Origin: Helicobacter cappadocius
GTDB taxonomy: Bacteria; Campylobacterota; Campylobacteria; Campylobacterales; Helicobacteraceae
Reading direction: 5' to 3'
Length of the DNA: 64,000 nt
Assembly: GCF_030688855.1 (NCBI RefSeq)
Contig: NZ_JAUYZK010000010.1
Span: 1 to 64,000 of the forward strand
This document shows positions 2,439-20,666 of this stretch, in pieces. The notes beneath the pieces were generated by a model. It was not told the origin of the DNA, ran no database searches, and saw only the letters and a list, made by a program, of their open reading frames with translations. Position numbers and translations under genes: made by a program. Each line of letters opens with the position of its first letter. The stretch's first letter is position 1.

Positions 2439-2469
2439 TTTTTTATAAGCCAACTTGTAAGGAGAGATT

Positions 2470-2598: not shown

Positions 2599-2609
2599 AA
2601 TATCTATTT

Positions 2610-5043: not shown

Positions 5044-5159
5044 TAAAAGCAAAAGGATACGGTTCGTATCATACATTTTTTGCAAAACATAATAATTTTG
5101 ATATTTTTAATATGGATGAAATGAGTAGAAATTTATTTATAAAATATTTTTCTTTATGA
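5037..5159 (+). CDS. Possible 40-aa ORF overlapping the end of the ybdD-type gene
   Basis: An ATG seven bases before the stop of the preceding gene opens a 40-codon frame (starting MLIKAKGYGSYHTFF) with no strong ribosome binding site beyond a GGGG. I recognise no family. It could be a coupled small gene or chance reading of AT-rich DNA. Confidence 0.2.
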   Translation: MLIKAKGYGSYHTFFAKHNNFDIFNMDEMSRNLFIKYFSL

Positions 5160-5237
5160 TTCTAAATCAAACTTTGTATCGTTGCTATCTTTTTAGTACA
5201 ATGAGAATGTATCAAAATTAATAATAAGGAAGATGAT

Positions 5238-5990
5238 ATGAATAAAAAAAATACGAATTTGAGTAGAAGGAATTTTTTTAAAACTTCTACACTTGCTGCA
5301 GGGGCAGTGCTGGGCGGAGGTGCCTTTGCTGGTACTTTGGCAGGTTGTGATGATTCAAAAAATAACTCCCATTCTATGCAATCAAATTATGATACAAATC
5401 AGGAAGCTCAAGCAAGAGGGAGAATGTTTTTTACCAAAGACTTAGATTTCGCGGTTTTATCAGCTAGTTGTGAGCGGATTTTTCCAAAAGATGATTTAGG
5501 AGCAGGAGCTATAGAGTTAGGCGTTCCTTATTTTATAGATAATCAACTCGCAGGTGCATATGGATACAACGCTAGAGAATATATGAGCGGACCTTTTGAG
5601 AATGGCACTCCAACACAAGGTTATCAAACCCCTCTTATCCGTAGAGATATTTTTTTAGAAGGTATAAAGTCTATAGAAAATGAAGCAATAAAAAATTATA
5701 AAAAAAGTTTTGTAGATTTGGATGCTAAAAATCAAGATTTAATTCTCAAAAGTTTTGAAGCAAATAAGGTTTCTATGAAAGGGGTTTCATCAAGCTATTT
5801 TTTCTCTCTTTTGAGAGAAATGACTTTAGCTGGGGTGTATGCAGATCCTATCTATGGTGGTAATGATAAAATGCAGGGATGGAAAATGAAAGAGTTTCCT
5901 GGAGCACAAATGTCTTATATGGCATTTATTACAGATGAAAAATTTCAAAAAATATCTCCTATGTCTTTAGCTGATATGCAAGGAAAATAA
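5238..5990 (+). CDS. Gluconate 2-dehydrogenase subunit 3 family protein (Tat-exported)
   Basis: The 250-residue protein starts with a twin-arginine signal (SRRNFFKTST) and an alanine/glycine-rich hydrophobic stretch ending near LAGC, so it is exported folded. The rest matches the small subunit that accompanies GMC-type sugar-acid dehydrogenases. Its stop is one base before the start of the GMC subunit, so the two form one transcription and export unit. Campylobacter jejuni Cj0414/Cj0415 is the described counterpart, oxidising gluconate in the periplasm. A TACAAT -10 box lies at 5197-5202. Confidence 0.88.
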   Translation: MNKKNTNLSRRNFFKTSTLAAGAVLGGGAFAGTLAGCDDSKNNSHSMQSNYDTNQEAQARGRMFFTKDLDFAVLSASCERIFPKDDLGAGAIELGVPYFIDNQLAGAYGYNAREYMSGPFENGTPTQGYQTPLIRRDIFLEGIKSIENEAIKNYKKSFVDLDAKNQDLILKSFEANKVSMKGVSSSYFFSLLREMTLAGVYADPIYGGNDKMQGWKMKEFPGAQMSYMAFITDEKFQKISPMSLADMQGK

Positions 5991-5991
5991 A

Positions 5992-7704
5992 ATGGCAAAA
6001 ATATTAAAAAAAGTAGATGTATTAACCGTTGGAGTTGGCTGGACAGGAGGTATTGTAGCTGCTGAATGTGCAAAAGCTGGGCTTAAAGTCGTTGGGCTAG
6101 AACGTGGAGATATGAGGAGTACTGAAGATTTTGTAGAAGTTCATGATGAGTGGCGTTATGCTGTGAATTATGGCTTAATGCAAGATCTCTCTAAAGAAAC
6201 TGTAACCTTTAGGAATTCTCCCAAACAAAAAGCTCTTCCTATGAGAAAACTAGGCTCTTTTTTGCTTGGAGATAATTTAGGCGGAGCAGGGGTACATTGG
6301 AATGGTTGGACTTATAGATTTTTTCCTTATGATTTTCAGATCAAAACAATGACAGAGAAACGTTATGGTAAAAATAAACTTTCCAAAGACTATTTGCTTC
6401 AAGATTGGGGTATTACGTATGATGAAATGGAACCTTATTTTGATAAGTTTGAAAAGACAGCTGGAATTTCAGGTGAGGCTAAAAATCCATTTTCTGGAAA
6501 AAGATCTAGTGATTATCCTCAAGTGCCTTTGCAAAATACTCCTATTCTCTCAAAGTTTGAGCAGACAACCAAAAAAATGGGCTACCATCCCTATAGAATG
6601 CCCGCAGCAAATAGTTCTGGAAGCTACACCAATCCTGATGGAGAAGTTCTTAATCCTTGCCAATATTGTGCTTTTTGCGAAAGATTTGGTTGTGAGTATG
6701 GTGCGAAGGCAAGTCCTATTGTTACTGTTATTCCAACAGCACTTAAAACAGGAAATTATGAAATCAGATCCAATGCAAATGTGATTGAAATTCTCAAAAA
6801 AGGGAATAAAGTTATCGGGGTAAAATATGTCGATACAAAGACCTTAGAAGAATATATTCAACTTGCTGATATTGTCGTGCTTAGCAGTTTTGTGCTAAAT
6901 AATGCTAAGTTGTTAATGGTTTCAAATATTGGAGAACAATATGATCCTAAGACTCGCAAAGGCACTTTAGGAAAAAATTATTGTTATCAGCTCAATCCAG
7001 GCACAACAGCTTTTTTTGATGATCAATACAATGTTTTTATGGGTTCAGGAGCGTTAGGAACAAATATAGATGATTTCAATGGAGATAATTTTGACCATTC
7101 TAATTTAGATTTTATTCATGGAGCTTTAATCTATGGTCTCCAAAGTGGTTCTAGACCCATTTTGAGTAATCCCGTACCTGCTGGAACACCTTCTTGGGGA
7201 AGTGAGTTTAAAAAAGCTTCTGTATATAACTATACTCGTGCCATATCTGTAGGAGGACAAGGTGCTTCAATGCCACATTATCAAAATTATTTATCTTTAG
7301 ACCCTACCTATAAAGATGCCTATGGAATGCCGTTATTGAGAATGACTTATAATTTTACAGATCAAGACAGAGCTCTTTTCAAACACATAACCGCACAAAC
7401 TGAAGCGATTGCTAAGGCTATGAATCCTAAGTCTATTGTTTCTGCTGCACAAATCACAGATTATAGCGTCGTGCCTTATCAATCAACGCATAATGTTGGA
7501 GGCACTACGATGGGATCAGATCCAAAAAATAGCGTCGTGAATAATTATTTACAACACTGGGATGTGGAAAATCTTTTTGTGGTTGGAGCTGGAAATTTTG
7601 CACACAATAGCGGATATAATCCTACTGGAACTGCTGGTGCTTTGGCATATAGATGTGCTGAAGGGATTATCAAGTATCACAAAAAAGGTGGAAGTTTGGT
7701 ATAA
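5992..7704 (+). CDS. GMC-family oxidoreductase, gluconate 2-dehydrogenase large subunit
   Basis: The 570-residue flavoprotein has an N-terminal nucleotide-binding fold (VGVGWTGGIVAAECAKAG near residue 13, then GLERG), a GGAGVHWNGW segment near residue 98 and a C-terminal HNVGGTTMG and NPTGTAGALA block of GMC enzymes. A cysteine cluster (CQYCAFCERFGCEYG, near residue 223) is typical of the gluconate dehydrogenase branch. It has no signal of its own and probably crosses the membrane with the Tat-tagged subunit. No cytochrome c subunit gene is adjacent. Gluconate is the likely substrate, but related sugar acids are possible. Confidence 0.88.
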   Translation: MAKILKKVDVLTVGVGWTGGIVAAECAKAGLKVVGLERGDMRSTEDFVEVHDEWRYAVNYGLMQDLSKETVTFRNSPKQKALPMRKLGSFLLGDNLGGAGVHWNGWTYRFFPYDFQIKTMTEKRYGKNKLSKDYLLQDWGITYDEMEPYFDKFEKTAGISGEAKNPFSGKRSSDYPQVPLQNTPILSKFEQTTKKMGYHPYRMPAANSSGSYTNPDGEVLNPCQYCAFCERFGCEYGAKASPIVTVIPTALKTGNYEIRSNANVIEILKKGNKVIGVKYVDTKTLEEYIQLADIVVLSSFVLNNAKLLMVSNIGEQYDPKTRKGTLGKNYCYQLNPGTTAFFDDQYNVFMGSGALGTNIDDFNGDNFDHSNLDFIHGALIYGLQSGSRPILSNPVPAGTPSWGSEFKKASVYNYTRAISVGGQGASMPHYQNYLSLDPTYKDAYGMPLLRMTYNFTDQDRALFKHITAQTEAIAKAMNPKSIVSAAQITDYSVVPYQSTHNVGGTTMGSDPKNSVVNNYLQHWDVENLFVVGAGNFAHNSGYNPTGTAGALAYRCAEGIIKYHKKGGSLV

Positions 7705-7718
7705 ATCCTTTGGTTTCC

Positions 7719-7760
7719 TTTAGAAGGGTATCTTAATGCCCTTCTAAATTATTTTTTCTC
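7719..7760 (+). terminator. Strong intrinsic terminator after the GMC dehydrogenase pair
   Basis: A perfect 10-bp inverted repeat (TTTAGAAGGG, 7719-7728, with CCCTTCTAAA, 7739-7748) and 10-base loop is followed by a T-rich run. The remaining bases to 7890 hold only AT-rich leader for poxB. Confidence 0.8.
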
Positions 7761-7890
7761 CTTTATCTTTTCTTTCTCTTCTATTTTTAAATAAATATTT
7801 TTTATCTATTAATAATTTTATTTTTTCAAGTATCTCAATGTTTAATATTTTAGATGTAAAATGAAATAATTTTAAATTTTAGGAGCGAAA

Positions 7891-9609
7891 ATGAAAGTTG
7901 CAGAAATAATGGTCGAAGTTTTGGCAAATGCAGGAGTGCAAAGATGCTATGGGATTGTAGGTGATACACTCAATCATTTTACCGATGCTATTTATCATAG
8001 CAAAAAAATACAATGGATTCATATGAGACACGAAGAAGCAGGAGGTTTTGCAGCTGGAGCTGATGCACTTATAACAAAAAAACCAACTGCTTGTGCAGGT
8101 TCTTGCGGTCCTGGAAGTTTGCATTTTATCAACTCTTTGATGGATGCAGGACGTAACCGTGCTCCTGTGATATTGATAGCTAGTCAGCTTGATGTTCAAA
8201 ACTTGGGAACACATTTTCCTCAAGAAGTTGATTTTAAAAAAATCTATGAAAGTTTTGCAGTTTATTGTGAGCAGATAAATACCCCAGAGGAAGCTCAATA
8301 TATTATGACTATGGCGGTTCAAAATGCCATCAACAAAAGGGGAGTTGCTGTAGTAATAATGCCTGTAAATATAAGCGTACAATCTGCGCAATATGATCCA
8401 AATATGAAAATCCATTTACCAAATCCAGTGTTTTGCCCTAACGAAGATGAAATCAAGGAGATTGTCAGTTTGATTTCTAAGGGTAAAAAGGTTGGCATAT
8501 ATGCTGGAGCAGGTGTCGAAGGAGCACATGATGAGCTTGTGAAATTTGCTGAAAAGATCAAAGCACCTATAGCCCACAGTGCAAGATCAAAAGATTTTGT
8601 GGAATATGATAATCCGTATAATATGGGTATGACAGGGCTTGTGGGGGTCAAATCAGGCTTTGATATGATGAATGAATGTGATGTGTTATTGGTGTTGGGA
8701 TCGGATTTGGCATGGAGGCAGTTTTATCCACAAAAGGCTGTGATTATTCAAGTAGATAATGATTGTTCTCATCTTGGACGCAGATGTAATCCAAAAATTG
8801 CTGTTTTAGGAGATGTGAAGCATACATTAAAAAAACTTATAGAAGCAGTGAGTGAAAAAACTGATAGGAGCTTCTTAGATCATTGTCTGAAGATAAAAGA
8901 AGAAACAGATAAAAAATTACTAAAAGACACACAAGCCCCCTCTGGCGATATAATACATCCGCAATTCCTTACAGGGCTTATTGATAAATACGCTCCAAAA
9001 GACGCGCTTTTTGCAGCTGATGGAGGTTCTCCGATGGTCTGGGCATTGCGTTATTTGACAGGGACAAGAGAACGTCGTATTTTTACATCATTATTGCATG
9101 GAACGATGGCGAATGCTATGCCGATGTGCTTGGGACTAAAAAAGGCATTTCCAAATAAAGAAGTGATTTCTTTTTCAGGAGATGGTGGATTAGCTATGTT
9201 GCTTGGAGATTTGCTCAGTGCCATTCAAGAAAATATACCCATCAAGGTTGTGGTTTTTAATAATTCATCTTTGAATTTTGTTGAACTTGAACAAAAAGTA
9301 GAAGGGCTTTTGGACAATTATACAGATCTAAAAAATCCATCTTTTGCCGATCTTAGCAGGGTTATAGGATTTGATTCTTGGAGGGTTGAAAAAAGTTCAG
9401 ATTTAGAAGAAAATGTAAAAAATTTTTTTAATACTAAAAAACCGGCCTTATTGGATGTTGTAGTCAATCCTAAAGAACTCGTAATGCCTCCAAAAGTTGA
9501 ATTATCCGAAGTTGCACACTTTGCACTTTATTCAGCAAAGGCACTTATTGCAGGTAGAGCAAATGATGTTGAGGAACTGATAAAAACAAATATCAACAAG
9601 CTTATTTGA
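7891..9609 (+). CDS. poxB: Pyruvate:quinone dehydrogenase (pyruvate oxidase, ThDP enzyme)
   Basis: This 572-residue thiamine-diphosphate enzyme has an N-terminal pyrimidine-binding domain with the catalytic glutamate in HMRHEEAGGFAAG (near residue 50), a central FAD-type domain, and a C-terminal ThDP motif beginning GDGGLAMLLGD near residue 430 and ending in NN. PoxB decarboxylates pyruvate to acetate and CO2 and passes electrons to the quinone pool at the inner membrane. It lies alone after a terminator, with GGAG before the ATG. Acetolactate synthase is a possible confusion, but the LHFINSLMDAGRNRAPVIL stretch and the lone large subunit favour PoxB. Confidence 0.88.
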   Translation: MKVAEIMVEVLANAGVQRCYGIVGDTLNHFTDAIYHSKKIQWIHMRHEEAGGFAAGADALITKKPTACAGSCGPGSLHFINSLMDAGRNRAPVILIASQLDVQNLGTHFPQEVDFKKIYESFAVYCEQINTPEEAQYIMTMAVQNAINKRGVAVVIMPVNISVQSAQYDPNMKIHLPNPVFCPNEDEIKEIVSLISKGKKVGIYAGAGVEGAHDELVKFAEKIKAPIAHSARSKDFVEYDNPYNMGMTGLVGVKSGFDMMNECDVLLVLGSDLAWRQFYPQKAVIIQVDNDCSHLGRRCNPKIAVLGDVKHTLKKLIEAVSEKTDRSFLDHCLKIKEETDKKLLKDTQAPSGDIIHPQFLTGLIDKYAPKDALFAADGGSPMVWALRYLTGTRERRIFTSLLHGTMANAMPMCLGLKKAFPNKEVISFSGDGGLAMLLGDLLSAIQENIPIKVVVFNNSSLNFVELEQKVEGLLDNYTDLKNPSFADLSRVIGFDSWRVEKSSDLEENVKNFFNTKKPALLDVVVNPKELVMPPKVELSEVAHFALYSAKALIAGRANDVEELIKTNINKLI

Positions 9610-9698: not shown

Positions 9699-10577
9699 GT
9701 GAGTATTTTGAATGTTCTGCATTTAATGAGATTTCATCAATATATCAAGAACTTTTTTATTTTCATTCCGGCATTTTTTAGTTTCAAGTTTTTTGATGAG
9801 AACTCTATTTGCAATTCTTTGATCGCTTTTGTAGCATTTTGTTTGTGTGCAAGTGCGATTTATATCATCAATGACATTATAGATGCACCCTCAGATCGTA
9901 TCCATCCTAGTAAATCTAAGCGCCCCATCGCTAGTGGAAAAATAAAACCTAAAGTTGCCTTGTTTTTCGCAATGATTTTTTTGGTGCTTAGCATTTTTAT
10001 TTTGATATATTTGCTTCCTGAAGTGATTTTTCCGGTTGTAGTTTATGTTGTGATTAACTTACTCTACACCCTCAAACTCAAACATGTCCCTATAGTAGAT
10101 ATTTTTATCATCGCTAGTGGCTTTGTGATACGGCTATTTGTTGGTGCATTAGCAGTGAATGTTCCCTTGTCTGAATGGATTATTGTGATGACATTTTTAT
10201 TGGCATTATTTTTGGCTTTGGCAAAAAGACGCGATGATGTGATTTTATACGAGAGTAGTGGTGAGAAAATGCGCAAGGTTGTTGATGGTTACAATCTACA
10301 ATTTTTGGATATTGCTATGGCCATTAGTGGCTCAATAGTTATGATTGCATATATATTATGGAGTATTTCTGCAGAAGTAAAACTTAGGCTTCATAGCGAT
10401 TATTTGTATCTCACGAGTATATTTGTTTTGGCAGGAATATTTCGATATATGCAGATTGCTTTTGTAGAAAAAAAGAGCGGGAATCCAAGCAAAATAGTTC
10501 TGCAGGATAGATTTTTGCAAGGAGTGATTTTGTGTTGGCTAGTTAGCTTTTGGATATTAATGTATATGAGGGGTTAG
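9699..10577 (+). CDS. UbiA-family decaprenyl-phosphate phosphoribosyltransferase
   Basis: The 292-residue protein has about eight or nine membrane segments and the two aspartate motifs of UbiA enzymes: NDIIDAPSDRIHPSKSKRP near residue 66 and the segment around LKHVPIVDIFIIASGFVIR near 127. The later LALAKRRDD sequence is typical of the branch that moves phosphoribose from PRPP onto a polyprenyl phosphate (as mycobacterial Rv3806c does). It heads a locus of membrane glycosyltransferases, an epimerase and an HAD phosphatase, which fits formation of a polyprenyl-phosphate pentose donor. It begins with GTG. The family is firm; the lipid chain length is assumed. Confidence 0.85.
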   Translation: MSILNVLHLMRFHQYIKNFFIFIPAFFSFKFFDENSICNSLIAFVAFCLCASAIYIINDIIDAPSDRIHPSKSKRPIASGKIKPKVALFFAMIFLVLSIFILIYLLPEVIFPVVVYVVINLLYTLKLKHVPIVDIFIIASGFVIRLFVGALAVNVPLSEWIIVMTFLLALFLALAKRRDDVILYESSGEKMRKVVDGYNLQFLDIAMAISGSIVMIAYILWSISAEVKLRLHSDYLYLTSIFVLAGIFRYMQIAFVEKKSGNPSKIVLQDRFLQGVILCWLVSFWILMYMRG

Positions 10578-10578
10578 A

Positions 10579-10809
10579 ATGTTTTTGGAAAACTTGAAAG
10601 ACAAGATGATTTATGTATTGATGTTGCTTGTTTTGGGCTTTTTTGCCTATATGGGATATCAGTATATGGATATTCAGTTTTTGCCTACTACTCTTAAAAG
10701 ATGACTCAATATCTGCAAAAACACTTAGGGAATTGCAGACAAATCACAGGTGCAATCATCAGGAGATTTTGTTATTTTTGTAAAAAACAATAAAAAAGAG
10801 AATAGGTGA
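10579..10809 (+). pseudogene. Small membrane protein gene broken by two compensating frameshifts
   Basis: The frame from ATG 10579 encodes a hydrophobic segment (MIYVLMLLVLGFFAYMGYQY) and stops at 10702-10704 after 41 codons. Dropping one A from the AAAA at 10696-10699 continues as DDSISAKTLRELQT. Adding one A near 10741 returns to the first frame, ending as QVQSSGDFVIFVKNNKKENR with a TGA at 10807-10809 that overlaps the next ATG. The repaired product would be about 76 residues with one membrane helix. Either the gene is decayed or both indels are sequencing errors in A runs. I recognise no family. Confidence 0.55.
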
Positions 10810-11988
10810 TGGAAATTTTAGATAAAACGAAAATATTTTTGTTAGATGTGTTTAATAAATATAGATGGGTCTTTTTGATAATTTTTGTTCTGATTGCAGT
10901 TAAAAGTATTTATCAAAGTATAATCTTGTCTATGGGTAGTAGCTTGGATATGCAGTGGTATCCGGCACTTCAGTATTGGGGGATGGGGGATTTTACTCAC
11001 TCTATCAATCCTTATTTGGCTCGTTTAAATGGAGATACTTTTATGTCTCAAGATCCAAATTATGCACCATTGCTTTATGTATTGATGTATCCATTTGCCT
11101 TGATGGATTTTACTAGTGCAAAAATATCTTTTGCCATTTTTAGTATCACCTGTTTTTTTGCAACCATGTGGTTGTTCTATCGAAATAAAGTCAATCTAGC
11201 ATTTTTGTTGCTTATAGGTATTTTTGTTTTATTTGGATATACATTTGGAAATGTTATTGCCAATGGTCAGTTAGCGATAATCTTAGGGTTTTTTCTCTCA
11301 CTGGGATATTTTTATCGTAAGAGTCCCATTGTTTTGAGTTTGTGTTTGAGTATTGTATTTGTAAAATATTCTTTTGGAATCCCTATTTTGCTTGGATTTT
11401 TCTTAGCGGGTTATCGAAAAGAAACAATCTTGGCAGGATTTATCAATCTAGCATTTGTGATATTATTTGCATTTCAATTCAATATAAGCATTTTACAGTC
11501 TTTGCTTTTGCCACTAAAAGTTTCAGCACAAGCCACAGGGGTAGGACCTTCAGATTTGATGAGTTTATCTAGAATTCTATTTGATGGGGCTTTATTTATG
11601 GTTTCAAATCCATTTTTATACATGATTGGGTTTGTGTATGGTTTGTATGTCTATATATGTTTTAGATTATCCCCCCCCCCCCAGCAATATCATCAGTTCT
11701 TCTATTTTGCTATCCTTATCGACCTTCTATCATTTAGGATATGATCATTATATGTTTTTTTTGGCTGCAATGATCGCAAAAGAGCGGCTTAAAAGCACAG
11801 ATTTTTCGATGGTTTTTTTGGTAACATTAGCATTATTTTTGTGGCTTGGATCTAGGGTGCAAAAGTTTCTTCCAGATGGTTATTTTTGGGCGATGAATAT
11901 GGGAGTTGTATTTTGCTCTATTATGAGTGCAATGATCTTAATATCAGTATTTTGGATACTTTTGGGAAGAAATAAACAAGGAATTTGA
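10809..11988 (+). CDS. Phase-variable GT87-like membrane glycosyltransferase, OFF at C12
   Basis: The coding region is split at a C12 tract (11671-11682). The first part reads through the tract into a wrong frame and stops at 11744. The correct frame resumes after the tract and runs to 11988. With C11 the product is about 392 residues with some ten membrane helices. It has an NPY motif after the first extracytoplasmic loop (SINPYLARL) and ANGQLAIIL near residue 155, as in GT-C fold GT87 polyprenyl-phosphate-sugar transferases (DUF2029). The start could be GTG 10806 or ATG 10809; the latter overlaps the stop of the small gene before it. Function as a glycosyltransferase is inferred. Confidence 0.8.
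11671..11682 (+). repeat. Homopolymeric C12 tract (phase-variation switch)
   Basis: Twelve consecutive C residues lie inside a coding region. C11 (or C14) would join the two halves in frame as SPPPSNIISS; C12 ends 21 codons after the tract in LLSFRI. Such tracts change length by slipped-strand mispairing in Helicobacter and Campylobacter. Confidence 0.9.
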
Positions 11989-11989
11989 A

Positions 11990-13519
11990 ATGAATTTAGA
12001 CATAGAAAAACAAAAGAGTGATTATTTTATTTTGGGGAGTGTATTGTATATATTTTTATTTTTATTTGCAACAAATATGTTATTTCCTCCACAAAGTGAT
12101 GATTTTGATGCGTATTATCAAGCCTTAAATGGTATAGATAGTGCGATAAAATCTTATCTTACATGGAATTCAAGATTTGGAGATTTGATTTATGTAGGGT
12201 TTTTGGCTAAATATAATGCGAGTATTTATTTTGATGGTTTTATTTCTATTATGGAAACAGGGTTTTTTCTAGCTTTTTTTGTTCTTGTATTTGGTCGATT
12301 ACCAAAAAATAGCTTTGATAGCCTAATTTTATTTTTAAGTTTATTTTTCATTCTTTTTTTTACAGCTTTTGGGTCTGATTTTTTGTGGGGAAGTGGAGTT
12401 TTAAATAATCTCCTTGGTGTCTTATTGATTATGTTGTGCTTAATCCCCTATAGAATGTTTTGGAGTTCCTATTTTGAAGGAAAATTGCAGACAAAAAATT
12501 TTTCACTTATCTATACTATTTTATTTTTTTTATTGAATTTTTTCGCTGGGTGGTGTACTGAGCTAGGTGGTATTATTACTATAGCGGCTCAAATTTGTTT
12601 TTTATTTTTTGCACTTTTTGTCGCTAAAGTCAAACTTCCTTCTTGGTATTATGTGGGTATTGCTGGATTTTTGATAGGGTATTGTGTTTTATATTTTTCT
12701 CCTGGTCCTAGAATAAGAGCAATCAATTCTCCAGAATTCCTTAGTATAGCGGAGTTTTTAAAACTTTCTTTTGTAGATAAAATGAAGCGATTTTATCTAG
12801 CTATCAATGCTTATTACTCAAATATATTTGTTGTTTCTCTTTTGAGTATTTTGCTTTATTTTTTGATAAAAAATCTAAAATCAAAATCCAATAAAATCAT
12901 ATTATGGATAGGTTTTGTTCTCTTTAGTGTTGTTTTTTTAGTGCTTGGAAGGCATCTGCCCCATACATTCTTTTTTCTGTTTTGTTTTTTTGTGATTTTG
13001 TGGTGTTGTTATTTTTCATATAAAAATAAAAGTGAAGATTTCAAATATTTATTTATCGTATTTTTATTGTATTGTTTTTGGATTGTGGGTGGATTAGCAT
13101 TGGTGCAGATTCCAAATATTCCCAATAGAACAAGATTGTTTAGTGATATGATATTATTTTCTATAATGATTTTTTCTTTTATTAAAATATATGATTTATT
13201 AGATGCTAGATGGAGGAGATTTTTGGCTTCTTTGGTTATATTTGTGAGTGTTTCTTATAGCGTTTTTGTCGAAATACAGTATCTCAAACATAGAATCAGA
13301 TGGGAAAATATGATTTCTTATATTGAGCAAGAAAAAATCAAAGGTAACAAGCATATTATCATAGATGGAAGGGTTTTTGAGAGTTTGTATAAAAACTTTG
13401 GAGATTATGCTGATCCGGGATTCGATCCAGATAAATGGCCAAATGGTATGTATGCACATCGCTTTGGAGTGGATACTTTTCAAATATCAGATAGCAAAGA
13501 AAGGATTTTAAATGATTAA
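11990..13519 (+). CDS. Large membrane protein, DUF6056/GT-C-like glycosyltransferase candidate
   Basis: This 509-residue protein has about eleven to twelve membrane segments. After the first helix it shows PPQSDDFDAYYQALNG and then YLTWNSRFGD, a pattern I associate with the DUF6056 group, where acidic residues in the first periplasmic loop resemble GT-C catalytic sites. A long C-terminal loop (KIKGNKHIIIDGRVFE onward) is probably periplasmic. It follows the phase-variable gene after one base and overlaps the SMR gene by eight bases, so it belongs to the same operon. The family call is from memory and function is inferred. Confidence 0.6.
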   Translation: MNLDIEKQKSDYFILGSVLYIFLFLFATNMLFPPQSDDFDAYYQALNGIDSAIKSYLTWNSRFGDLIYVGFLAKYNASIYFDGFISIMETGFFLAFFVLVFGRLPKNSFDSLILFLSLFFILFFTAFGSDFLWGSGVLNNLLGVLLIMLCLIPYRMFWSSYFEGKLQTKNFSLIYTILFFLLNFFAGWCTELGGIITIAAQICFLFFALFVAKVKLPSWYYVGIAGFLIGYCVLYFSPGPRIRAINSPEFLSIAEFLKLSFVDKMKRFYLAINAYYSNIFVVSLLSILLYFLIKNLKSKSNKIILWIGFVLFSVVFLVLGRHLPHTFFFLFCFFVILWCCYFSYKNKSEDFKYLFIVFLLYCFWIVGGLALVQIPNIPNRTRLFSDMILFSIMIFSFIKIYDLLDARWRRFLASLVIFVSVSYSVFVEIQYLKHRIRWENMISYIEQEKIKGNKHIIIDGRVFESLYKNFGDYADPGFDPDKWPNGMYAHRFGVDTFQISDSKERILND

Positions 13520-13874
13520 GTTTATCCCTATTATTTTATTTTCTGTTGCCTTAAATGCTTTTGCACAGATTTTTATCAAAAAAGGAATGATGTCGCTTGG
13601 TTCGCTTTCTGTAAGTATGGATTTTATCCTCAGAGGATTGGGGAATTTTTATCTTTGGATGGGAATGTTATGTTATGCTATCAGCGTATTGTCTTGGATG
13701 GTTGTCCTCTCAAAGGTCAATGTAAGCATAGCGTATCCATTTTTGAGTTTGGGATTTATTTTTTCTGCAATTGTTGCTTATTATGCTTTTGGAGAGCCTT
13801 TGACGCTTTATAAAATCATCGGTATTGCACTTATTTGTGCCGGACTTTTCTTTTTGACTATTTCTAAGGGATAA
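13512..13874 (+). CDS. SMR/EamA-like small membrane protein, ArnE/ArnF-type flippase candidate
   Basis: The 120-residue protein has four membrane helices and small-multidrug-resistance features: NAFAQIFIKKGM in helix 1 and YAISVLSWMVVLSKVNVSIAYPFLSLGFIFSA across helices 2-3. Single-gene SMR proteins inside glycan loci often carry polyprenyl-phosphate sugars across the inner membrane, as ArnE/ArnF do for aminoarabinose. Its place between a GT-C-like gene and an epimerase suits that job rather than drug efflux. Which substrate it carries is inference. Confidence 0.72.
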   Translation: MIKFIPIILFSVALNAFAQIFIKKGMMSLGSLSVSMDFILRGLGNFYLWMGMLCYAISVLSWMVVLSKVNVSIAYPFLSLGFIFSAIVAYYAFGEPLTLYKIIGIALICAGLFFLTISKG

Positions 13875-13876
13875 AA

Positions 13877-14848
13877 ATGCGCTATATTATCGTTGGCGGA
13901 GCTGGATTTTTAGGTCAATATATCGTGGATTTGATCTCTGAAAAACTTGCAAAGAACGATCAAATTATTATATTAGATATTTCAAAGCCAAAAAAACTTC
14001 CCTTTGGGACAAATTTTTTTTGCATAGATATTACTAAAAAGATTGATTTTGAATTTTTACGCGATGATGTTGTTGTTCATCTTGCAGCTAGGCAATACCA
14101 TCTAAAACCACCTAGAAAAAATAGAAGAGAATATTTTTTTGATACCAATGTCTTAGGAACAAAAAATCTATTAGAGAAGATGGAAAAAGATGGTTGCAAT
14201 AAAATGATTTATTTTAGCACTGATATGGTTTATGGTAAGCCTGAATATTTACCCATAAATTCACGCCATTGCAAAAACCCCTTTGGAGAGTATGGTAAAA
14301 GTAAGCTTGAGTGTGAAAGACTTTGCGAACACTATCGCAAAAAGGGTTTTAGTATCACTATTTTCCGTCCGCGTATGATAGTAGGGAAGGGTAGATTTGG
14401 GATTTTGATAAAATTATTTAAGTTAATGGAGATGGGATTGCCCATACCAATGATTGGAAGTGGAAATAACTGTTACCAGATGGTGAGCGTGAGAGATTGT
14501 GCTAGTGCTATTTGGTTGGCATTGCAAAAAGGTATCCCCAATGTCGAGCTTAATCTAGGAAGCAAAAATCCACCAAAGGTAAAAGATTTACTCAAAAAAA
14601 TGGTCGCACAAACGGGTTCTAAATCTTGGGTAATACCAACTTATGGAAGGTTTGTAAAATATACTTTAGGTTTTTTAGGTTTTTTGGGATTAGAGATCAT
14701 GTATAAAGAACAATATAAAATCGCTGATGAGGAATATGTGGTGGATATTACTGAAGCTAGAGATATTTTGGGTTGGGAACCAATGCAAGAAGATGGAGAT
14801 ATGTTGATAGAGGCCTATAATGAATACAAAGCATCAAAAGAAAAATAA
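13877..14848 (+). CDS. NAD-dependent epimerase/dehydratase (extended SDR)
   Basis: The 323-residue protein starts with a Rossmann glycine motif (IVGGAGFLGQYIVD). It has the catalytic set STDMVYG near residue 115 and YGKSK near residue 138, followed by FRPRMIVG. It is two bases after the SMR gene. In a polyprenyl-phosphate pentose locus an SDR could perform the reduction half of a 2-epimerisation (as DprE2 does), but the flavin oxidase partner (DprE1) is not encoded nearby. A nucleotide-sugar epimerase or reductase remains possible. Confidence 0.82.
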   Translation: MRYIIVGGAGFLGQYIVDLISEKLAKNDQIIILDISKPKKLPFGTNFFCIDITKKIDFEFLRDDVVVHLAARQYHLKPPRKNRREYFFDTNVLGTKNLLEKMEKDGCNKMIYFSTDMVYGKPEYLPINSRHCKNPFGEYGKSKLECERLCEHYRKKGFSITIFRPRMIVGKGRFGILIKLFKLMEMGLPIPMIGSGNNCYQMVSVRDCASAIWLALQKGIPNVELNLGSKNPPKVKDLLKKMVAQTGSKSWVIPTYGRFVKYTLGFLGFLGLEIMYKEQYKIADEEYVVDITEARDILGWEPMQEDGDMLIEAYNEYKASKEK

Positions 14849-14860
14849 GAAAAATAAAAA

Positions 14861-15457
14861 ATGAAACAAAACATAGCTTTTTTTGATTTTGATGGAACTA
14901 TTACTCGCAGAGATAGCCTGTTTTTATTTGTCAAATTTTTAGTAGGACACAGGAAATTTTATTGGGGTATTTTGATTCATTTGCATATTTTATTGGGATA
15001 TTTGATGGGGGTATTAAAAAACTCCTATGCAAAAGAGAGATTGAGTGAATATTTTTTCAAAGGCTATGAGGGCAAGGAGTTTTTAATTGAATGTGAGAAG
15101 TTTCTGACAATTCTAAAAACAACACTCAAAGATTCTGCTCTTGAAAGGCTGTATTGGCACAAACAGCAAGGAGATAAAATTGTTTTGGTTAGTGCCAGTT
15201 TTGAAGAATATCTTATTCCCTTGTGTAGAGAGCTTCAGATAGATTGTATTGGGACGGCTCTGGAGGTCAAAAATGCAAAGCTTACAGGAAGATTTGCATG
15301 TGCTAATTGCTATGGAAAAGAAAAATCAATCAGAATTCAAAATAAGTATGATTTAAAAGACTATGCGAAAATTTATGCTTATGGGGATAGCAGTGGCGAT
15401 AAAGAGATGTTAGCATTAGCATCTATAGAGAATAGATTTTATAAATTTTTCAAATAA
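14861..15457 (+). CDS. HAD-IB family phosphatase
   Basis: This 198-residue soluble enzyme shows HAD motif I FFDFDGTIT at residues 7-15, motif II VSAS near 112 and motif IV GDSSGDKEML near 174, with a helical cap between. It closes the operon that begins with the UbiA-type gene. HAD proteins often accompany, or are fused to, such UbiA enzymes, and the likely task is removal of the 5-phosphate from polyprenyl-phosphoryl phosphoribose. SerB-like phosphoserine phosphatase is an alternative. Confidence 0.8.
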   Translation: MKQNIAFFDFDGTITRRDSLFLFVKFLVGHRKFYWGILIHLHILLGYLMGVLKNSYAKERLSEYFFKGYEGKEFLIECEKFLTILKTTLKDSALERLYWHKQQGDKIVLVSASFEEYLIPLCRELQIDCIGTALEVKNAKLTGRFACANCYGKEKSIRIQNKYDLKDYAKIYAYGDSSGDKEMLALASIENRFYKFFK

Positions 15458-15587: not shown

Positions 15588-16613
15588 ATGAAAAAATATG
15601 TTGTAGGAGTAGTGGGTGCTAGTGGAGCTGTAGGGGAAGAACTTTTTAGGGTTTTAGATGAACGTAAATTTCCTATCAAGAAAATCGTACCATTAGCAAG
15701 TATGCGTAGTGCAGGAGAAGAAATAGAGGCATTTGGCGAAAACCATAAAATATTAGAAACTACTCACCAGGTTTTTGAAAAAGAAGGTATAGAGATCGCG
15801 TTTTTTTCAGCAGGTGGAAGCGTGAGCGCGGAATTTGCTCCTAGTGCAGCAAAGGCAGGGGCAGTTGTGATAGATAATACAAGTCATTTTCGTATGCAAG
15901 ATGATGTTCCTCTCATCGTCCCTGAAGTAAATCCTGAAGATATATCGAAGTGGAAAAAGACAGGAATTATCGCTAATCCAAATTGTTCTACGATTCAGAT
16001 GGTGCAGGTTTTAGGACCACTTCATAAGGCATTTGGTATTAAGCGAGTGGATGTTAGCACTTATCAGGCAGTCAGTGGTGCAGGTAAAAAAGGGATGGAA
16101 GAATTGGTGATGCAAATGCAAAAATTCTTCGCTTTTGAACTAGAAGATTGTGAACCAAAAGCTTTTCCTTACCGCATTGCACTTAATCTTATTCCTCAAA
16201 TTGATATTTTTATGCCCAATGACTATACAAAAGAAGAAATGAAAATGGTTAATGAAACACATAAGATTTTAGGATCGGATTTTCCTTTGAGTGCAACTTG
16301 TGTAAGAGTTCCTGTCTTGAGATCACATAGCGAAGCCATCAGCATTTCTTTTGAACGCGAAGTCAAAGCACAAGAAGCAAGAGAGATTTTAGAAAAATCT
16401 AAAAATATTGTTGTCGTGGATACTCCTACTGAAAAGCTCTATCCAATGCCAATTATTTCTACAGATACAGATGAAACTTATGTGGGTCGTATTAGAAATG
16501 ATATTTATGACAGAAAAATATTACATTTATGGTGTGTGGCAGATCAATTACGTGTAGGAGCAGCCACAAATGCTGTGAAGATTGCACAAAAGTGGATAGA
16601 GCTTAATGGTTGA
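15588..16613 (+). CDS. asd: Aspartate-semialdehyde dehydrogenase
   Basis: The enzyme reduces aspartyl phosphate to aspartate semialdehyde for lysine, diaminopimelate, threonine and methionine synthesis. The 341-residue product has VGASGAVGEEL at the N-terminus for NADPH binding, the active-site cysteine in NPNCSTIQMV near residue 133, and SAYQAVSGAG-type sequence (STYQAVSGAGKKG) near residue 162. A TAAAAT -10 box with TGGG before it lies at 15518-15523. The 3' end overlaps the convergent DUF2147 gene by 11 bases. Confidence 0.95.
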   Translation: MKKYVVGVVGASGAVGEELFRVLDERKFPIKKIVPLASMRSAGEEIEAFGENHKILETTHQVFEKEGIEIAFFSAGGSVSAEFAPSAAKAGAVVIDNTSHFRMQDDVPLIVPEVNPEDISKWKKTGIIANPNCSTIQMVQVLGPLHKAFGIKRVDVSTYQAVSGAGKKGMEELVMQMQKFFAFELEDCEPKAFPYRIALNLIPQIDIFMPNDYTKEEMKMVNETHKILGSDFPLSATCVRVPVLRSHSEAISISFEREVKAQEAREILEKSKNIVVVDTPTEKLYPMPIISTDTDETYVGRIRNDIYDRKILHLWCVADQLRVGAATNAVKIAQKWIELNG

Positions 16614-17100
16614 TTTGAGAAATAGTGCTTAGAACCTCTTGGAAGTTGGGTCTTTTGATCCCCCTTTCTTTGACTTCTTCTTCGGTGAGCTTTTTCCACA
16701 AAAAAGTTTTTCCTATGTATCCGGTTGAATCAATGCTAGAGTAAAAGTCTAAATCACCATTTTTTCTTTGGTGGATTCTGACATAATAGGTTCTGCCATC
16801 GTAGAAATTGTAAGCCTTGCCATTTTTATAATTGTTTGGAGAGGTTTGGATAAGATCATACAAAAAGACAACCCCTTTATCATTCCTGTTTCTTAGTTCG
16901 GGATTTGGATTTTTCGAGTCTTTTTTAGGTGGTGAATGATCGGCATTTTCTAATCCGTATGCGTAATATTCGCCATTAATTTTGAAGAATTCAACATAAG
17001 CACTCTTGAAAAACAAAAAAGATTGCGATTGATATACTCCTACAAGCTCATTTCCAAACAGAAAATTTAGAAAAAATAAAACTATAATCCCATACTTCAT
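16603..17100 (-). CDS. DUF2147 family exported protein
   Basis: A 165-residue protein with a signal peptide of about 16 residues ending at FLFGN. The body follows the DUF2147 pattern: LVGVYQSQSFLFFKSAYVEFF, a charged loop with KNPNPELRNR, and YDGRTYYVRIHQRKNGDLDFYSSIDSTGYIGKTFLWKK near the end. The family is periplasmic and of unknown biochemical role. It is nine bases downstream of the YhcH-type gene on the same strand, so the two probably share a transcript. Confidence 0.8.
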   Translation of the reverse strand: MKYGIIVLFFLNFLFGNELVGVYQSQSFLFFKSAYVEFFKINGEYYAYGLENADHSPPKKDSKNPNPELRNRNDKGVVFLYDLIQTSPNNYKNGKAYNFYDGRTYYVRIHQRKNGDLDFYSSIDSTGYIGKTFLWKKLTEEEVKERGIKRPNFQEVLSTISQINH

Positions 17101-17109
17101 AGCTATGCT

Positions 17110-17625
17110 TTATAGACTCACTTTGACAATCGATCTAGGAACTTTGATAACTATTTTTGAAACATTATTTTCTATATTGTCAAAACTAAGTCCCCCAGCA
17201 TGAACATCATTATCAAAAAAAATCGCTAACATGCCTTCATCTAGTCTAATTTTTGAGGTTTTTGAATTTTTATTATAAATAATCAAGTCTTTTTGTTCAT
17301 TGTAAGGAGTTTTGATTTCAAAATCATTTTTATCGCCTATTTCAAAGAATTCCACGCCTTTTACTACTAGTTGAAAATCTATGTATTTGATATGGGTTTC
17401 ATAAAATGCCTCATCTATGCTTTTGAGGGGATAGGATTGGGCGATGGCAAACATGCCGTTAATAAGATCGGATTTATTCTCTGTCTTTAGTGGTGTGTTT
17501 ATTGTATGTTGATGGCTAGGGTGATTTGGATTTATCGCATCGCTCATATAACTATAGAGATATTTGAGATCATTATTTTTTTGAAATAAAGATTCTAAAG
17601 AATGTAATTTTCCTATGATTGCCAT
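17110..17625 (-). CDS. YhcH/YjgK/YiaL family protein (DUF386)
   Basis: This 171-residue soluble protein fits the cupin-like YhcH/YjgK/YiaL group, with metal-ligand motifs YETHIKYIDFQLVVKG near residue 76 and FFDNDVHAGG near residue 138. Members occur in sialic acid and other sugar-acid operons and as EbgC with beta-galactosidase; some act as anomerases. No sugar catabolic genes are adjacent here. The family is clear and the substrate is unknown. Confidence 0.85.
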   Translation of the reverse strand: MAIIGKLHSLESLFQKNNDLKYLYSYMSDAINPNHPSHQHTINTPLKTENKSDLINGMFAIAQSYPLKSIDEAFYETHIKYIDFQLVVKGVEFFEIGDKNDFEIKTPYNEQKDLIIYNKNSKTSKIRLDEGMLAIFFDNDVHAGGLSFDNIENNVSKIVIKVPRSIVKVSL

Positions 17626-17729
17626 TATTCTTCCTGAAAAGATTCAAAGTTTGTCATTATTTATTTGTGGATGTAATTGTATCACTTTATTTTAAATATT
17701 TGCATATGCAATCATTTAAAACAATAGGA

Positions 17730-17735
17730 TATAAT
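17730..17735 (+). promoter_or_regulatory. -10 box for the DUF3943-type gene
   Basis: A TATAAT preceded by AGGA lies 39 bases before the TTG start at 17775. The 150-base gap between the divergent YhcH-type gene and this one holds nothing else recognisable. Confidence 0.5.
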
Positions 17736-17774
17736 TACAACAAAAGATGATAATGTTTTCGGAGAGTAATTAAG

Positions 17775-18518
17775 TTGAAGATTTTAAAAACTTTGTTGAT
17801 AGTTTGTATTTGTACTAATTTATTCGGATCTTCGCTTGAAGAGACACTCAAAAATCCAAAAATCAAACACTATAATTTCCCTGCAAAACCCGATGAACCA
17901 GGTAATCCATACTATTATGTCCCTGACAGCAAAGGTAAGTATCTTGGAACGAGTGCTGGAATATTAGGCATAGGTTTGATTGTGGGTATTACAGGATTGT
18001 ATTTGATGCCTGAGAGTGTTACAAACTGGGATAGGGAAAGATTTGGACTTAGAAGTTGGGTTCAGGATGTTTCAATCGCTCCTGCTGTAGATAATGATAA
18101 TTTTTGGCTCAATGGCGTTGCACATCCATATTTTGGAGCTGTATATTATCTTCAGCCACGAAAGGCAGGGTATAGTTGGCCTGAATCTGTGCTTTTTTCT
18201 TTTATGACTTCAGCATTTTTTTGGGAATATGGCATTGAGGCTTTTGTAGAGATTCCTAGTTGGCAAGACTTGATCTATACTCCTGCGATGGGTTCAATAT
18301 TTGGAGAAATTTTTTACCAACTTACACGTTATATACAATCAAATAATGGAGAGCTTTTTGGCTCCAGGATTTTGGGTTATACGCTTATTGCTTTGATGGA
18401 TCCAATAGGTTTTATTATTTCAGATCTCGGATTGGGTGAATTTGTAGGGGTCAAAAATAAAAACAAGATAGTCGGGGGCATTTCTCCGCTTGGGATAAGT
18501 TTTGCTTATAGATTTTAG
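17775..18518 (+). CDS. DUF3943 family outer-envelope protein
   Basis: The 247-residue protein starts with TTG after GGAGAG and has a signal peptide (ILKTLLIVCICTNLFGSS). A glycine-rich helix follows near residue 60. Next come WLNGVAHPYFGAVYYLQPR and FFWEYGIEAFVEIPSWQDLIYTPAMGSIFGE, which match the DUF3943 pattern. It ends in SFAYRF, a terminal aromatic residue as in outer-membrane beta proteins. The function is unknown. Confidence 0.7.
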   Translation: MKILKTLLIVCICTNLFGSSLEETLKNPKIKHYNFPAKPDEPGNPYYYVPDSKGKYLGTSAGILGIGLIVGITGLYLMPESVTNWDRERFGLRSWVQDVSIAPAVDNDNFWLNGVAHPYFGAVYYLQPRKAGYSWPESVLFSFMTSAFFWEYGIEAFVEIPSWQDLIYTPAMGSIFGEIFYQLTRYIQSNNGELFGSRILGYTLIALMDPIGFIISDLGLGEFVGVKNKNKIVGGISPLGISFAYRF

Positions 18519-18546
18519 GATTTTCCAAATTCGATATTTTTCTTGA

Positions 18547-18552
18547 TATAAT
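18547..18552 (+). promoter_or_regulatory. -10 box of the ribA-molybdopterin operon
   Basis: A TATAAT lies 31 bases before the TTG start of ribA. The seven genes that follow are so tightly packed that this is the only evident promoter for the group. Confidence 0.55.
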
Positions 18553-18582
18553 TGGATATAGAAATGAATAAAAGGATAGTTT

Positions 18583-19188
18583 TTGGAAAGATATCAAGTT
18601 TCAGAACGTGCAAAATTGCCCACCCGATTTGGTAATTTTTTTATACAGTCATTTAGAGAATTGAAGCCAGAAAAAGATTGTGAATGTCCTGTAGAACATC
18701 TAGTTGTTTTTACAGGTGATTTTTGTGATACTCCTGTTGTTAGAGTTCATTCTGAATGTTTGACCGGAGATGTTTTTGGTTCTCAAAAGTGTGATTGTGG
18801 TGGAGAACTTGCGTTAGCAATGCAAAAAATAGCACAAGAGCAAGAAAATGGCAAAAGTGGAATGTTGATATATTTGCGTCAAGAAGGTAGGGGTATTGGG
18901 CTTTTTAATAAGGTTAATGCCTACGCTCTGCAAGATACAGGTTATGATACGGTTGAGGCAAATGAGGCACTTGGTTTTAAAAGCGATAATCGAGATTATT
19001 CTATCGTGGGAGATATTTTCAAATACTACAAGATCAAAAAAATCCGCTTACTTACGAACAATCCTAGAAAAATCGAGGCGATGGGAAAATATGTTGAAGT
19101 TATCAGAGATAGCATTCTTGTGCCAAGTAACTCTTACAACGAAAAATACCTAGCTACAAAGAAGGCAAAATTAGGTCATTTATTATAA
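18583..19188 (+). CDS. ribA: GTP cyclohydrolase II
   Basis: This 201-residue enzyme opens the GTP ring in the first step of riboflavin synthesis. The zinc cysteines are visible in [21 protein letters not shown] near residue 52, and the catalytic loop reads [13 protein letters not shown] near residue 95. It starts with TTG after AAAGGA. moeA begins at the next base, so it is the first gene of a cofactor operon. H. pylori HP0802 is in the same neighbourhood of molybdopterin genes. Confidence 0.95.
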
Positions 19189-20433
19189 ATGCAAAAAAAT
19201 ATTAGTTTTTATGAAGCCATAGATTTTATACTCAAATCTCAAATTTCGCTATTAGGGAGAGAAAAAGTAGTCTTTAGCGATGCGTTAGGCAGGGTTTTAG
19301 CTCAAGATATTATCGCTAAGTCTAATATGCCTAAATTTCCCACTTCAAGCATGGATGGTTATGCCTTTTGTTTTGCAGACTTTCCCAGACTTTTGTCAGA
19401 AGGTCTTTTTTTAGATGGGGATAATCCAGCAGGTGCTGATGTGGAATTTTCTTTAAAACCTGCCAGTGCTATCAAAACTTTTACAGGCTCAAGAATGCCT
19501 AAAAATTCAGATACGATTTTATTGGTAGAATATAGTGTTTGTAAGGAAGGGAAAGTATTTTTGTCTCAAGATGCCCCTGTGATAAAAAAAGGGGATTGGG
19601 TGCGATGTGTTGGAGAAAATTATTGTAGTGGTGATGTTTTGCTTAAAAGAGGTGATTTTATAGGAGCATATGAAATTGGTCTTTTGGCTGATTTAAATGA
19701 GGTTTTTGTGGAAGTCTTTAGAAAACCAAAGGTTGCGATTTTAACAGGTGGTTCGGAGATTATTGAGGTTGGAGAAAATCGAGATTGTGAAAATATGATC
19801 TACAGCGTGAATAATCATTTGCTTAAAGCGATGGTAACCTCAATGGGAGGAGAAGGGATTTTATATCCCATAATGCCCGATAAAAAAGAGACAATAAAAG
19901 AGCTAATGTCTGAGGCTTTTAGAGATTGCGATATATTGCTTAGCACAGGGGGTATGAGTATGGGTGATTATGACTTTACTCAACAGGCTATAGCAGAACT
20001 TTGCGAAGTGGTTTTTAAAGGTGTTAGAATAAAACCGGGAAAACCTTTTGGTTACGCACTCTATCACCAAGATCAAAAAATAAAACACTTACTAGCTTTG
20101 CCTGGATCACCCAATTCGGCTGCATTGAGTTTTTATTTGTTTGGCAGTGTTGTTTTTGCTAAGATGTTTGGCATAACTTATGAGCATCAAGTATTAAAAG
20201 CCATTTTAAGTGAAGATGTAATCAGAACTGATAGCAGGATGGAATTTCGAGTTTGTGATTTAGAGATTTTTGAAGGTAGATATTATGCCAATTTTTCAAA
20301 AAAAAGAATTTTTCAAAGCTCGGTTATAAACAATTTATGTGGTAAATCTGCCTTAGTGATACTGCAAGAAAATGGAGAAAATTTGCATAAGGGTGATGAG
20401 GTTGATATGATTATTTTCAAAAATTTTTTATAG
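19189..20433 (+). CDS. moeA: Molybdopterin molybdenumtransferase
   Basis: MoeA inserts molybdate into adenylated molybdopterin. The 414-residue protein has the N-terminal PTSSMDGYAF motif near residue 52, the MoCF-type domain with STGGMSMGDYD near residue 253 and GVRIKPGKPFGYAL near 280, and a C-terminal beta-barrel domain. It begins immediately after the ribA stop and lies eight bases before moaD. Confidence 0.95.
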   Translation: MQKNISFYEAIDFILKSQISLLGREKVVFSDALGRVLAQDIIAKSNMPKFPTSSMDGYAFCFADFPRLLSEGLFLDGDNPAGADVEFSLKPASAIKTFTGSRMPKNSDTILLVEYSVCKEGKVFLSQDAPVIKKGDWVRCVGENYCSGDVLLKRGDFIGAYEIGLLADLNEVFVEVFRKPKVAILTGGSEIIEVGENRDCENMIYSVNNHLLKAMVTSMGGEGILYPIMPDKKETIKELMSEAFRDCDILLSTGGMSMGDYDFTQQAIAELCEVVFKGVRIKPGKPFGYALYHQDQKIKHLLALPGSPNSAALSFYLFGSVVFAKMFGITYEHQVLKAILSEDVIRTDSRMEFRVCDLEIFEGRYYANFSKKRIFQSSVINNLCGKSALVILQENGENLHKGDEVDMIIFKNFL

Positions 20434-20441
20434 GAGATATT

Positions 20442-20663: not shown

Positions 20664-20666
20664 ATA

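Follow-up and report, generated by a model that had tools for sequence, protein, structure and literature searches.

A probable lipid-linked pentofuranose decoration locus in Helicobacter cappadocius, with a GalE-like SDR in place of DprE1/DprE2

What would a Helicobacter do with a UbiA-type enzyme, a set of membrane proteins, an epimerase and a phosphatase encoded side by side? The window analysed here, i.e. the whole 64,000-nucleotide stretch at positions 1 to 64,000 of contig NZ_JAUYZK010000010.1 of Helicobacter cappadocius, a species of the lizard group, carries on its plus strand the entire run which a sequence-only reading had described: UbiA, two membrane proteins, an SMR carrier, an SDR and an HAD phosphatase. 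The answer proposed here starts from what the sequences show directly, namely which genes are present and to which families they belong, which of them occur together, how the SDR alternates with DprE1 and where the tracts lie; it is that H. cappadocius very probably makes a membrane-lipid-bound pentose and attaches it to its surface. The features of the locus are as follows.

9699-10577, plus strand: UbiA-type phosphoribosyltransferase (PPPRS), from Pfam UbiA, NCBIfam PRK12324 and the DPPRS alignment
10578-10805 (recognisable part 10597-10692), plus strand: remnant of a PMT_2-like GT-C gene, from identity to the 571-aa GT-C of relatives
10806-11988, plus strand: GT87-like GT-C gene, out of frame, from its orthologue in G002, Pfam GT87 and AlphaFold
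11671-11682, plus strand: C12 homopolymer, candidate phase-variation switch of the GT87-like gene, from the sequence
11990-13519, plus strand: DUF6056 multi-TM protein, second candidate GT-C, from Pfam PF19528
13512-13874, plus strand: SMR/EamA carrier, ArnF-like, proposed polyprenyl-P-pentose flippase, from NCBIfam ArnF
13877-14848, plus strand: extended SDR, which would epimerise polyprenyl-P-ribofuranose as a single enzyme, from Pfam Epimerase and motifs
14861-15457, plus strand: HAD-IB phosphatase, proposed 5-phosphate remover, from TIGR01490

Between GT-C and HAD, neighbouring genes are spaced by -8 to +12 nt. The gene set lies next to asd, with synteny kept in five other Helicobacter genomes, and core pieces of the locus recur in several phyla; hence, the clustering is not due to chance. 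A fecal contig (L100) bears a compact operon in the order UbiA-HAD-SMR-SDR-GT, the HAD gene directly following UbiA. A promoter scan of the locus returned matches no more frequently than in shuffled sequence, and the only terminator-like site lies within the SMR gene.

The UbiA protein matches Pfam UbiA at 6e-28 and exceeds the cut-offs of NCBIfam PRK12324.1-2 (239.7 bits, cut-off 234) and PRK12324.1-4 (222 bits, cut-off 207), the 4-hydroxybenzoate models scoring at most 41 bits. Moreover, the Mycobacterium tuberculosis DPPRS structure 8j8j aligns with it over the full length (E 1.1e-38), and its NDxxDxxxD motif INDIIDAPSD pairs with VNDVRDVEAD of DPPRS. The earlier assignment to the phosphoribosyltransferases is thus borne out, and identity with 4-hydroxybenzoate prenyltransferase is rejected on the NCBIfam scores. 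PPPRS is present in 17 of 121 Helicobacteraceae genomes.

The mycobacterial decaprenylphosphoryl-arabinose pathway comprises Rv3806c, Rv3807c, DprE1/E2, Rv3789 and Emb/Aft. The Helicobacter locus shares with it a homologous UbiA of the DPPRS type, a small flippase and the GT-C logic, yet it is devoid of DprE1 (tested, see below), an extended SDR standing in place of DprE1/DprE2, and it has an HAD phosphatase to which the mycobacterial one is unrelated. Arabinosylation of group IV pilin in Pseudomonas aeruginosa, by PSPA7_6246 and its partners, is by description likewise based on a Gram-negative PPPRS-derived donor feeding a periplasmic GT-C; however, no pilin locus is found at the Helicobacter site, and the epimerase is another one. 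The riban of H. pylori was set aside as a precedent, for the passage describing it deals with the sugar, not with a lipid-linked pathway (PMC5371381).

A better fit than the arabinan, Nod or pilin precedents is provided by the three-component systems for pentofuranose glycosylation reported in Kelly et al. 2024, in which genetics, NMR and in vitro assays back the association of PPPRS, HAD, ArnE-like carrier, GT-C and GalE-like SDR (PMC11127046); the latter enzyme would account for the absence of DprE1. In Citrobacter youngae O2, one GalE-like SDR converts undecaprenyl-P-ribofuranose into the xylofuranose form, with experimental support (PMC11127046). In common with C. youngae O1/O2, the Helicobacter locus has a UbiA-type PPPRS, a putative phosphoribose phosphatase of the HAD family, a small ArnE/EmrE-like carrier, candidate GT-C enzymes and a GalE-like SDR replacing DprE1/E2. 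Unlike in C. youngae, PPPRS and HAD are separate proteins, the candidate transferases are GT87-like/DUF6056 by Pfam, GT136 being the family of the three-component systems, the locus is not seen inside an O-antigen locus, and G/C tracts occur throughout the Helicobacteraceae loci. The SDR and ORF13 are likened by described motif types only, Gly-rich and YxxxK, both present in the Helicobacter SDR. All in all, I regard the locus as a likely pentofuranose decoration system of the three-component type, with a GalE-like SDR in place of DprE1/E2.

The earlier proposal of a related pentose donor serving surface or periplasmic decoration is supported by the UbiA assignment and by the co-occurrence of SDR and PPPRS; beyond that, the individual reactions, the way in which the carrier flips, the sugar transferred and its acceptor are my inference. 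The HAD phosphatase would strip the 5-phosphate, leaving undP-ribofuranose, of which the extended SDR, a GalE-like NAD enzyme, would epimerise one carbon, most likely C3, to give undP-xylofuranose, a step modelled on ORF13 of C. youngae O2. The ArnF-like SMR carrier would then flip the lipid sugar, and periplasmic GT-Cs (GT87-like, DUF6056) would transfer the pentose to a glycan or protein at the surface or in the periplasm. By analogy, xylofuranose appears to be the likeliest sugar.

The SDR scores 118 bits against Pfam Epimerase, its motifs GGxGFxG and YGKSK (YxxxK) are intact and kept in nine orthologues, and it is GalE-like by sequence; its closest solved relatives act on NDP-sugars, and among PDB entries it also matches, distantly, CDP-tyvelose 2-epimerase. 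As to the missing flavin oxidase, a search for DprE1 by way of the ALO domain had no match in the 121 Helicobacteraceae genomes, a test judged weak, as a true DprE1 (L090) matched FAD_binding_4 only. The search was therefore repeated with a probe validated against the PDB DprE1 (1e-72), which gave strong matches only in two Helicobacteraceae genomes, G041 and G045; the earlier remark on the missing DprE1 is correct for the source genome in both searches. In G041 and G045, a true DprE1 lies next to PPPRS with a classical DprE2-like SDR nearby and without the extended SDR, though their loci resemble the Helicobacter one in having a PPPRS with a G/C tract and a GT87-like transferase. The extended SDR occurs in 13 of the 17 PPPRS-bearing Helicobacteraceae, all 13 SDR-positive genomes carry PPPRS, and none of the 17 has both extended SDR and DprE1. 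Two explanations had been offered for the missing oxidase; a different epimerisation is the better one, because the extended SDR is found where two sister lineages carry DprE1/DprE2 and because C. youngae O2 sets a precedent, the transfer of ribose itself being less favoured.

Along the same line, one may suppose that the donor pathway is as proposed and that the SDR is instead a C2 epimerase, yielding polyprenyl-P-arabinofuranose in one step and replacing DprE1 plus DprE2. The SDR does stand where G041 and G045 have DprE1/DprE2, and extended SDRs can act at C2, as CDP-tyvelose 2-epimerase does; yet the only characterised single SDR of such a system yields the C3 epimer xylofuranose, and in the arabinofuranose systems that have been published, homologues of DprE1/E2 were present (PMC11127046), which makes arabinofuranose a serious but rather unlikely outcome. 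Nor need the SDR always be the sole epimerase, since Neorhizobium has a DprE1-like gene next to its SDR homologue, a divergent one (43%) on a long branch. In the SDR tree, the homologues from Neorhizobium and Azospirillum are remote, and many deep branches are unresolved. No SDR homologue was found in 392 Enterobacteriaceae-group genomes (E 1e-40), among which the only HAD-UbiA fusion, in G170, is of the DprE1/E2 type.

The GT87-like gene is read in two ORFs, 10806-11744 and 11626-11988, in different overlapping frames with their junction at the C12 tract; both match one 398-aa orthologue, which in G002 is a single open frame with a C11 tract. Pfam GT87 matches the first half of the gene at 23.8 bits, just below the 25-bit cut-off, and the AlphaFold model of the intact orthologue is moderately similar to the GT-C mannosyltransferase PimE (TM 0.63, E 1.6e-3), and matches other GT-C enzymes as well. 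The DUF6056 protein (PF19528, 146.7 bits, cut-off 27, E 1.1e-42) has a PPQSDD motif after TM1 and no relative in the PDB, and its AlphaFold model, built from four sequences, is too poor for fold comparison (pLDDT 42.6); topology, motif and context suggest a second candidate GT-C. The 228-nt gap at 10578-10805 contains the remnant of another GT-C, positions 10597-10692 being 69% identical to residues 21-52 of the 571-aa protein that in relatives sits between UbiA and the GT87-like gene. With the GT87-like gene out of frame and the other GT-C deleted, the DUF6056 protein is the only intact candidate transferase within the window's cluster in the present isolate. The frame break and the remnant might be taken to mean that the locus is decaying and that H. 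cappadocius bears no decoration; UbiA, DUF6056, SMR, SDR and HAD are, however, each intact, and the break falls in a homopolymer of a gene that G002 keeps in one open frame, so that decay is improbable.

Among NCBIfam models, the SMR carrier comes closest to the ArnF flippase subunit (56.3 bits, 4.2e-15, below the cut-off of 99), ArnF and ArnE being its top models, both under their curated cut-offs. Of 22 loci inspected, 21 have its gene immediately upstream of the SDR gene; the pair is also found in Alphaproteobacteria, Bacillota, Synergistota and Spirochaetes, and 11 of 12 non-Helicobacter genomes having the SDR encode PPPRS. Across phyla the SDR thus goes with PPPRS and not with a nucleotide-sugar locus. 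The HAD-IB protein scores 118.2 bits against TIGR01490 (cut-off 98.3) and carries the motifs DFDGT and GDSSGD; a homologue is present in all 11 PPPRS genomes tested and absent from the congener G001, itself without PPPRS, and no significant alignment was obtained with the HAD (PRP) domain of one fused HAD-UbiA protein. Were ribofuranose itself transferred, with the SDR serving some unrelated sugar nucleotide or modifying the acceptor glycan, PPPRS and phosphatase would be enough, as they are for the ribose donor of C. youngae O1 (PMC11127046), in keeping with the NDP-sugars of the SDR's solved relatives; the SMR-SDR adjacency, the near-perfect co-occurrence with PPPRS across phyla and the alternation with DprE1 render this quite improbable. 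Hardly credible is an aromatic prenyltransferase, 4-hydroxybenzoate or other, in a cluster unrelated to pentoses, for although the UbiA superfamily is common to both, the equivalog score, the full-length DPPRS alignment and the motif contradict it, and SMR, GT-C, SDR and HAD genes stand beside UbiA.

The proposed pentofuranose locus gains a further aspect from its G/C tracts, which in the loci of relatives are about 11-fold enriched (108 ten-mer positions vs 9.7 expected, the genome-wide counts being ten-mer positions, not tracts). PPPRS has an internal tract in 14 of 17 genomes, nine of them out of frame, and the SDR has one in two species. As the relatives' tracts are located in PPPRS, SDR and most transferases, the decoration is probably phase-variable in them, and the tracts presumably do switch. 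The window's own cluster has one tract only, in itself not surprising, a coding homopolymer that alters the frame and differs between relatives (C12 here, C11 and open in G002). The new element is that tracts occur locus-wide, PPPRS and SDR included, from which on/off phase variation is predicted and, perhaps, switching of sugar identity too. Tentatively, control might be layered through tracts independent of one another, the PPPRS tract setting the decoration on or off, the GT-C tracts its site, and the SDR tract the choice between ribofuranose and its epimer with presence unchanged; if true, the identity of the sugar would itself be phase-variable, through an epimerase whose substrate is the lipid-linked donor.

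To sum up, few Gram-negative bacteria have been shown to use lipid-linked donors for pentofuranose decoration, and the literature searched contained no such pathway for Helicobacter. The Helicobacteraceae represent a natural experiment, in which sister lineages pair the same PPPRS with either the extended SDR or DprE1/DprE2, so that the role of the SDR is directly testable. If the tracts switch, antigenic variation would operate at donor synthesis and sugar identity, not at the transferase alone, and UbiA-SMR-SDR would be a marker gene set with which to look for these glycans among gut and marine bacteria.

Six genes, all on the plus strand, span positions 9699-15457 of the window, and asd starts 130 nt downstream of them:

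9699-10577, +, UbiA-type polyprenyl-phosphate phosphoribosyltransferase (PPPRS)
10806-11988, +, split GT-C gene, GT87-like
11990-13519, +, DUF6056 membrane protein
13512-13874, +, small SMR/EamA carrier
13877-14848, +, extended SDR
14861-15457, +, HAD-IB phosphatase

The genes from the GT-C to the HAD are spaced by -8 to +12 nt, an operon-like arrangement. A C12 run at 11671-11682 divides the split gene into a part in one frame and a following part in another. Between the split gene and the UbiA gene, 10597-10692 matches residues 21-52 of the relatives' 571-aa GT-C at 69% identity; since this remnant sits where the relatives have that gene, a transferase gene has been lost from the window. Upstream (5238-9609), a Tat-type gluconate-dehydrogenase-like subunit, a GMC oxidoreductase and a pyruvate-oxidase-type TPP enzyme are largely kept across the genus, with no sign of a link to a pentose pathway. 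The flanking genes read (5238-9609 and 15588-21104) indicate no LPS, capsule or pilin cluster that would hint at the acceptor. In the sole congener without PPPRS (G001, locus L113), different genes lie upstream of asd and the HAD gene is missing too, so the module was lost or never present there.

The UbiA protein passes both NCBIfam equivalogs for decaprenyl-phosphate phosphoribosyltransferase (DPPRS; 239.7 bits, cut-off 234, and 222 bits, cut-off 207). A grouping with 4-hydroxybenzoate prenyltransferases, which the sequence-only reading had named as fatal to its proposal, is rejected, for those models score at most 41 bits. The top PDB match is M. tuberculosis DPPRS (8j8j, 1.1e-38), full length and with the NDxxDxxxD motif aligned, whose residues matter for the activity of Citrobacter ORF15 (Kelly et al. 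2024, PMC11127046). The HAD protein carries DFDGT and GDSSGD motifs and passes the TIGR01490 cut-off. The SMR carrier is nearest to ArnF/ArnE, the undP-aminoarabinose flippases, at scores under their curated cut-offs; the extended SDR is GalE-like by sequence comparison, its Gly-rich and YxxxK motifs being kept in nine orthologues. For the GT87-like protein, the model of an intact orthologue (pLDDT 66.7, pTM 0.73) has PimE (TM 0.63) and other GT-C enzymes as its best PDB matches; because the E-value is 1.6e-3, support for a predicted GT-C fold is moderate.

The closest known system is that of Citrobacter youngae O1/O2 (PMC11127046). There, polyprenyl-P-ribofuranose is the product of a UbiA-type PPPRS carrying an HAD phosphatase domain; flipping is likely done by an ArnE/EmrE-like carrier, and a periplasmic GT-C reaction transfers the sugar. 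This system fits better than the mycobacterial, Nod-factor and pilin precedents proposed earlier. A single GalE-like SDR, ORF13, decides there between ribofuranose and xylofuranose; homologues of ORF13 are reported from systems that make xylofuranose, and homologues of DprE1/E2 from those that make arabinofuranose (PMC11127046). The window has a putative counterpart for each of the Citrobacter parts.

A search of 121 Helicobacteraceae genomes for the ALO domain gave no hit, while the positive control Corynebacterium glutamicum matched. Because one true DprE1 has no ALO match, the search was redone with that protein as probe (1e-72 against PDB DprE1), which matched strongly only in G041 and G045; the window genome has neither match, in line with the absence of a DprE1-like flavin oxidase remarked on from the sequence. 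In those two genomes DprE1 (top NCBIfam match DprE1, 338.7 bits, under cut-off) directly adjoins PPPRS, with a classical DprE2-like SDR of 260-275 aa nearby. PPPRS occurs in 17 of the 121 genomes and the extended SDR in 13, every one among the 17 and none with DprE1, counts which are not independent events as the genomes are related; in G093 and G096, the remaining PPPRS genomes, which show neither, contig ends truncate the locus. The extended SDR and DprE1/E2 are thus alternatives beside the same synthase, and no other result speaks as strongly for an SDR that acts on the lipid-linked pentose.

In the proposed pathway, UbiA would convert PRPP to polyprenyl-P-ribose-5-P, the HAD protein would take off the phosphate, the SDR would epimerise, the SMR carrier would flip the product and a GT-C would attach the sugar. 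A pathway of this class is very likely; given it, the sugar is probably xylofuranose, with arabinofuranose rather unlikely and ribofuranose or another sugar less likely still.

Beyond Helicobacter, scanning a genome collection of 85,000 species turned up the SDR in Alphaproteobacteria of gut and marine origin and in one member each of Synergistaceae, Lachnospiraceae, Selenomonas and Spirochaetaceae. An SMR gene lies immediately upstream of the SDR gene in 21 of the 22 loci examined, and 11 of 12 non-Helicobacter SDR genomes encode PPPRS, six in the same locus. At 898-5419, MT837543.1 (L100) carries an entire UbiA-HAD-SMR-SDR-GT-C operon and, after it, a flippase-like gene; this unverified 6.6-kb fecal contig was deposited as bacteriophage and is probably bacterial or a seroconverting element. 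The phosphatase differs by group: HAD in Helicobacter and L100, and in gut Alphaproteobacteria a PgpA-family protein, a candidate substitute, encoded directly upstream of PPPRS:

L053, 8261-8749, PgpA-family phosphatase gene
L055, 8261-8749, PgpA-family phosphatase gene
L091, 9416-9880, PgpA-family phosphatase gene

Published systems likewise use unrelated phosphatases. As a caution, Neorhizobium has a distant SDR homologue (43%, long branch) beside an HAD-UbiA fusion and a DprE1-like gene.

On its own, the one tract in the window cluster would not stand out. For the clusters of 14 genomes, however, genome totals (genome sizes rounded) predict 9.7 ten-mer G/C positions, and 108 are observed. 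A tract of at least nine G/C lies inside PPPRS in 14 of 17 PPPRS genomes, mostly at window residues 95-97 and otherwise shortly after; the frame is broken in nine of these genes and kept in four, and a contig end interrupts the remaining one. Tract lengths, in PPPRS and elsewhere, were read from draft assemblies and may be off by one base. Neither the window nor its nearest relative has the PPPRS tract; theirs lies in the GT87-like gene, which is broken at C12 in the window and open at C11 in that relative, G002. Among the SDR genes, two have a tract, out of frame in G003 and in frame in G006, and in the H. canis and H. equorum groups tracts also occur in GT-C, GtrA-like, acyltransferase and methyltransferase-like genes. 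The H. canis-group locus (L041, L099 (G055), L036, L096 (G059)) is expanded, with several GT-Cs and these other three kinds of gene, nearly every gene having its own tract. Elsewhere in the window, tracts at 25148 (C11) and 49169 (G9) mark candidate phase-variable genes. A Selenomonas and a Spirochaetaceae bin also have G/C tracts within or close to PPPRS and SDR (L061 8979; L062 9085, 9957, 13290), which suggests that the same pathway is independently phase-variable there.

Open-access literature searches found no report of a phase-variable pentofuranose donor synthase or epimerase, nor, as the sequence-only reading had stated, of this pathway in Helicobacter. Since in Citrobacter loss of the SDR alters the sugar while transfer continues, the SDR tract might, by analogy, act as a switch of sugar identity. 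The kind of system is already known; what is new is the host, the split gene architecture and transferase families, in which Helicobacter differs from C. youngae, and the probable control by tracts.
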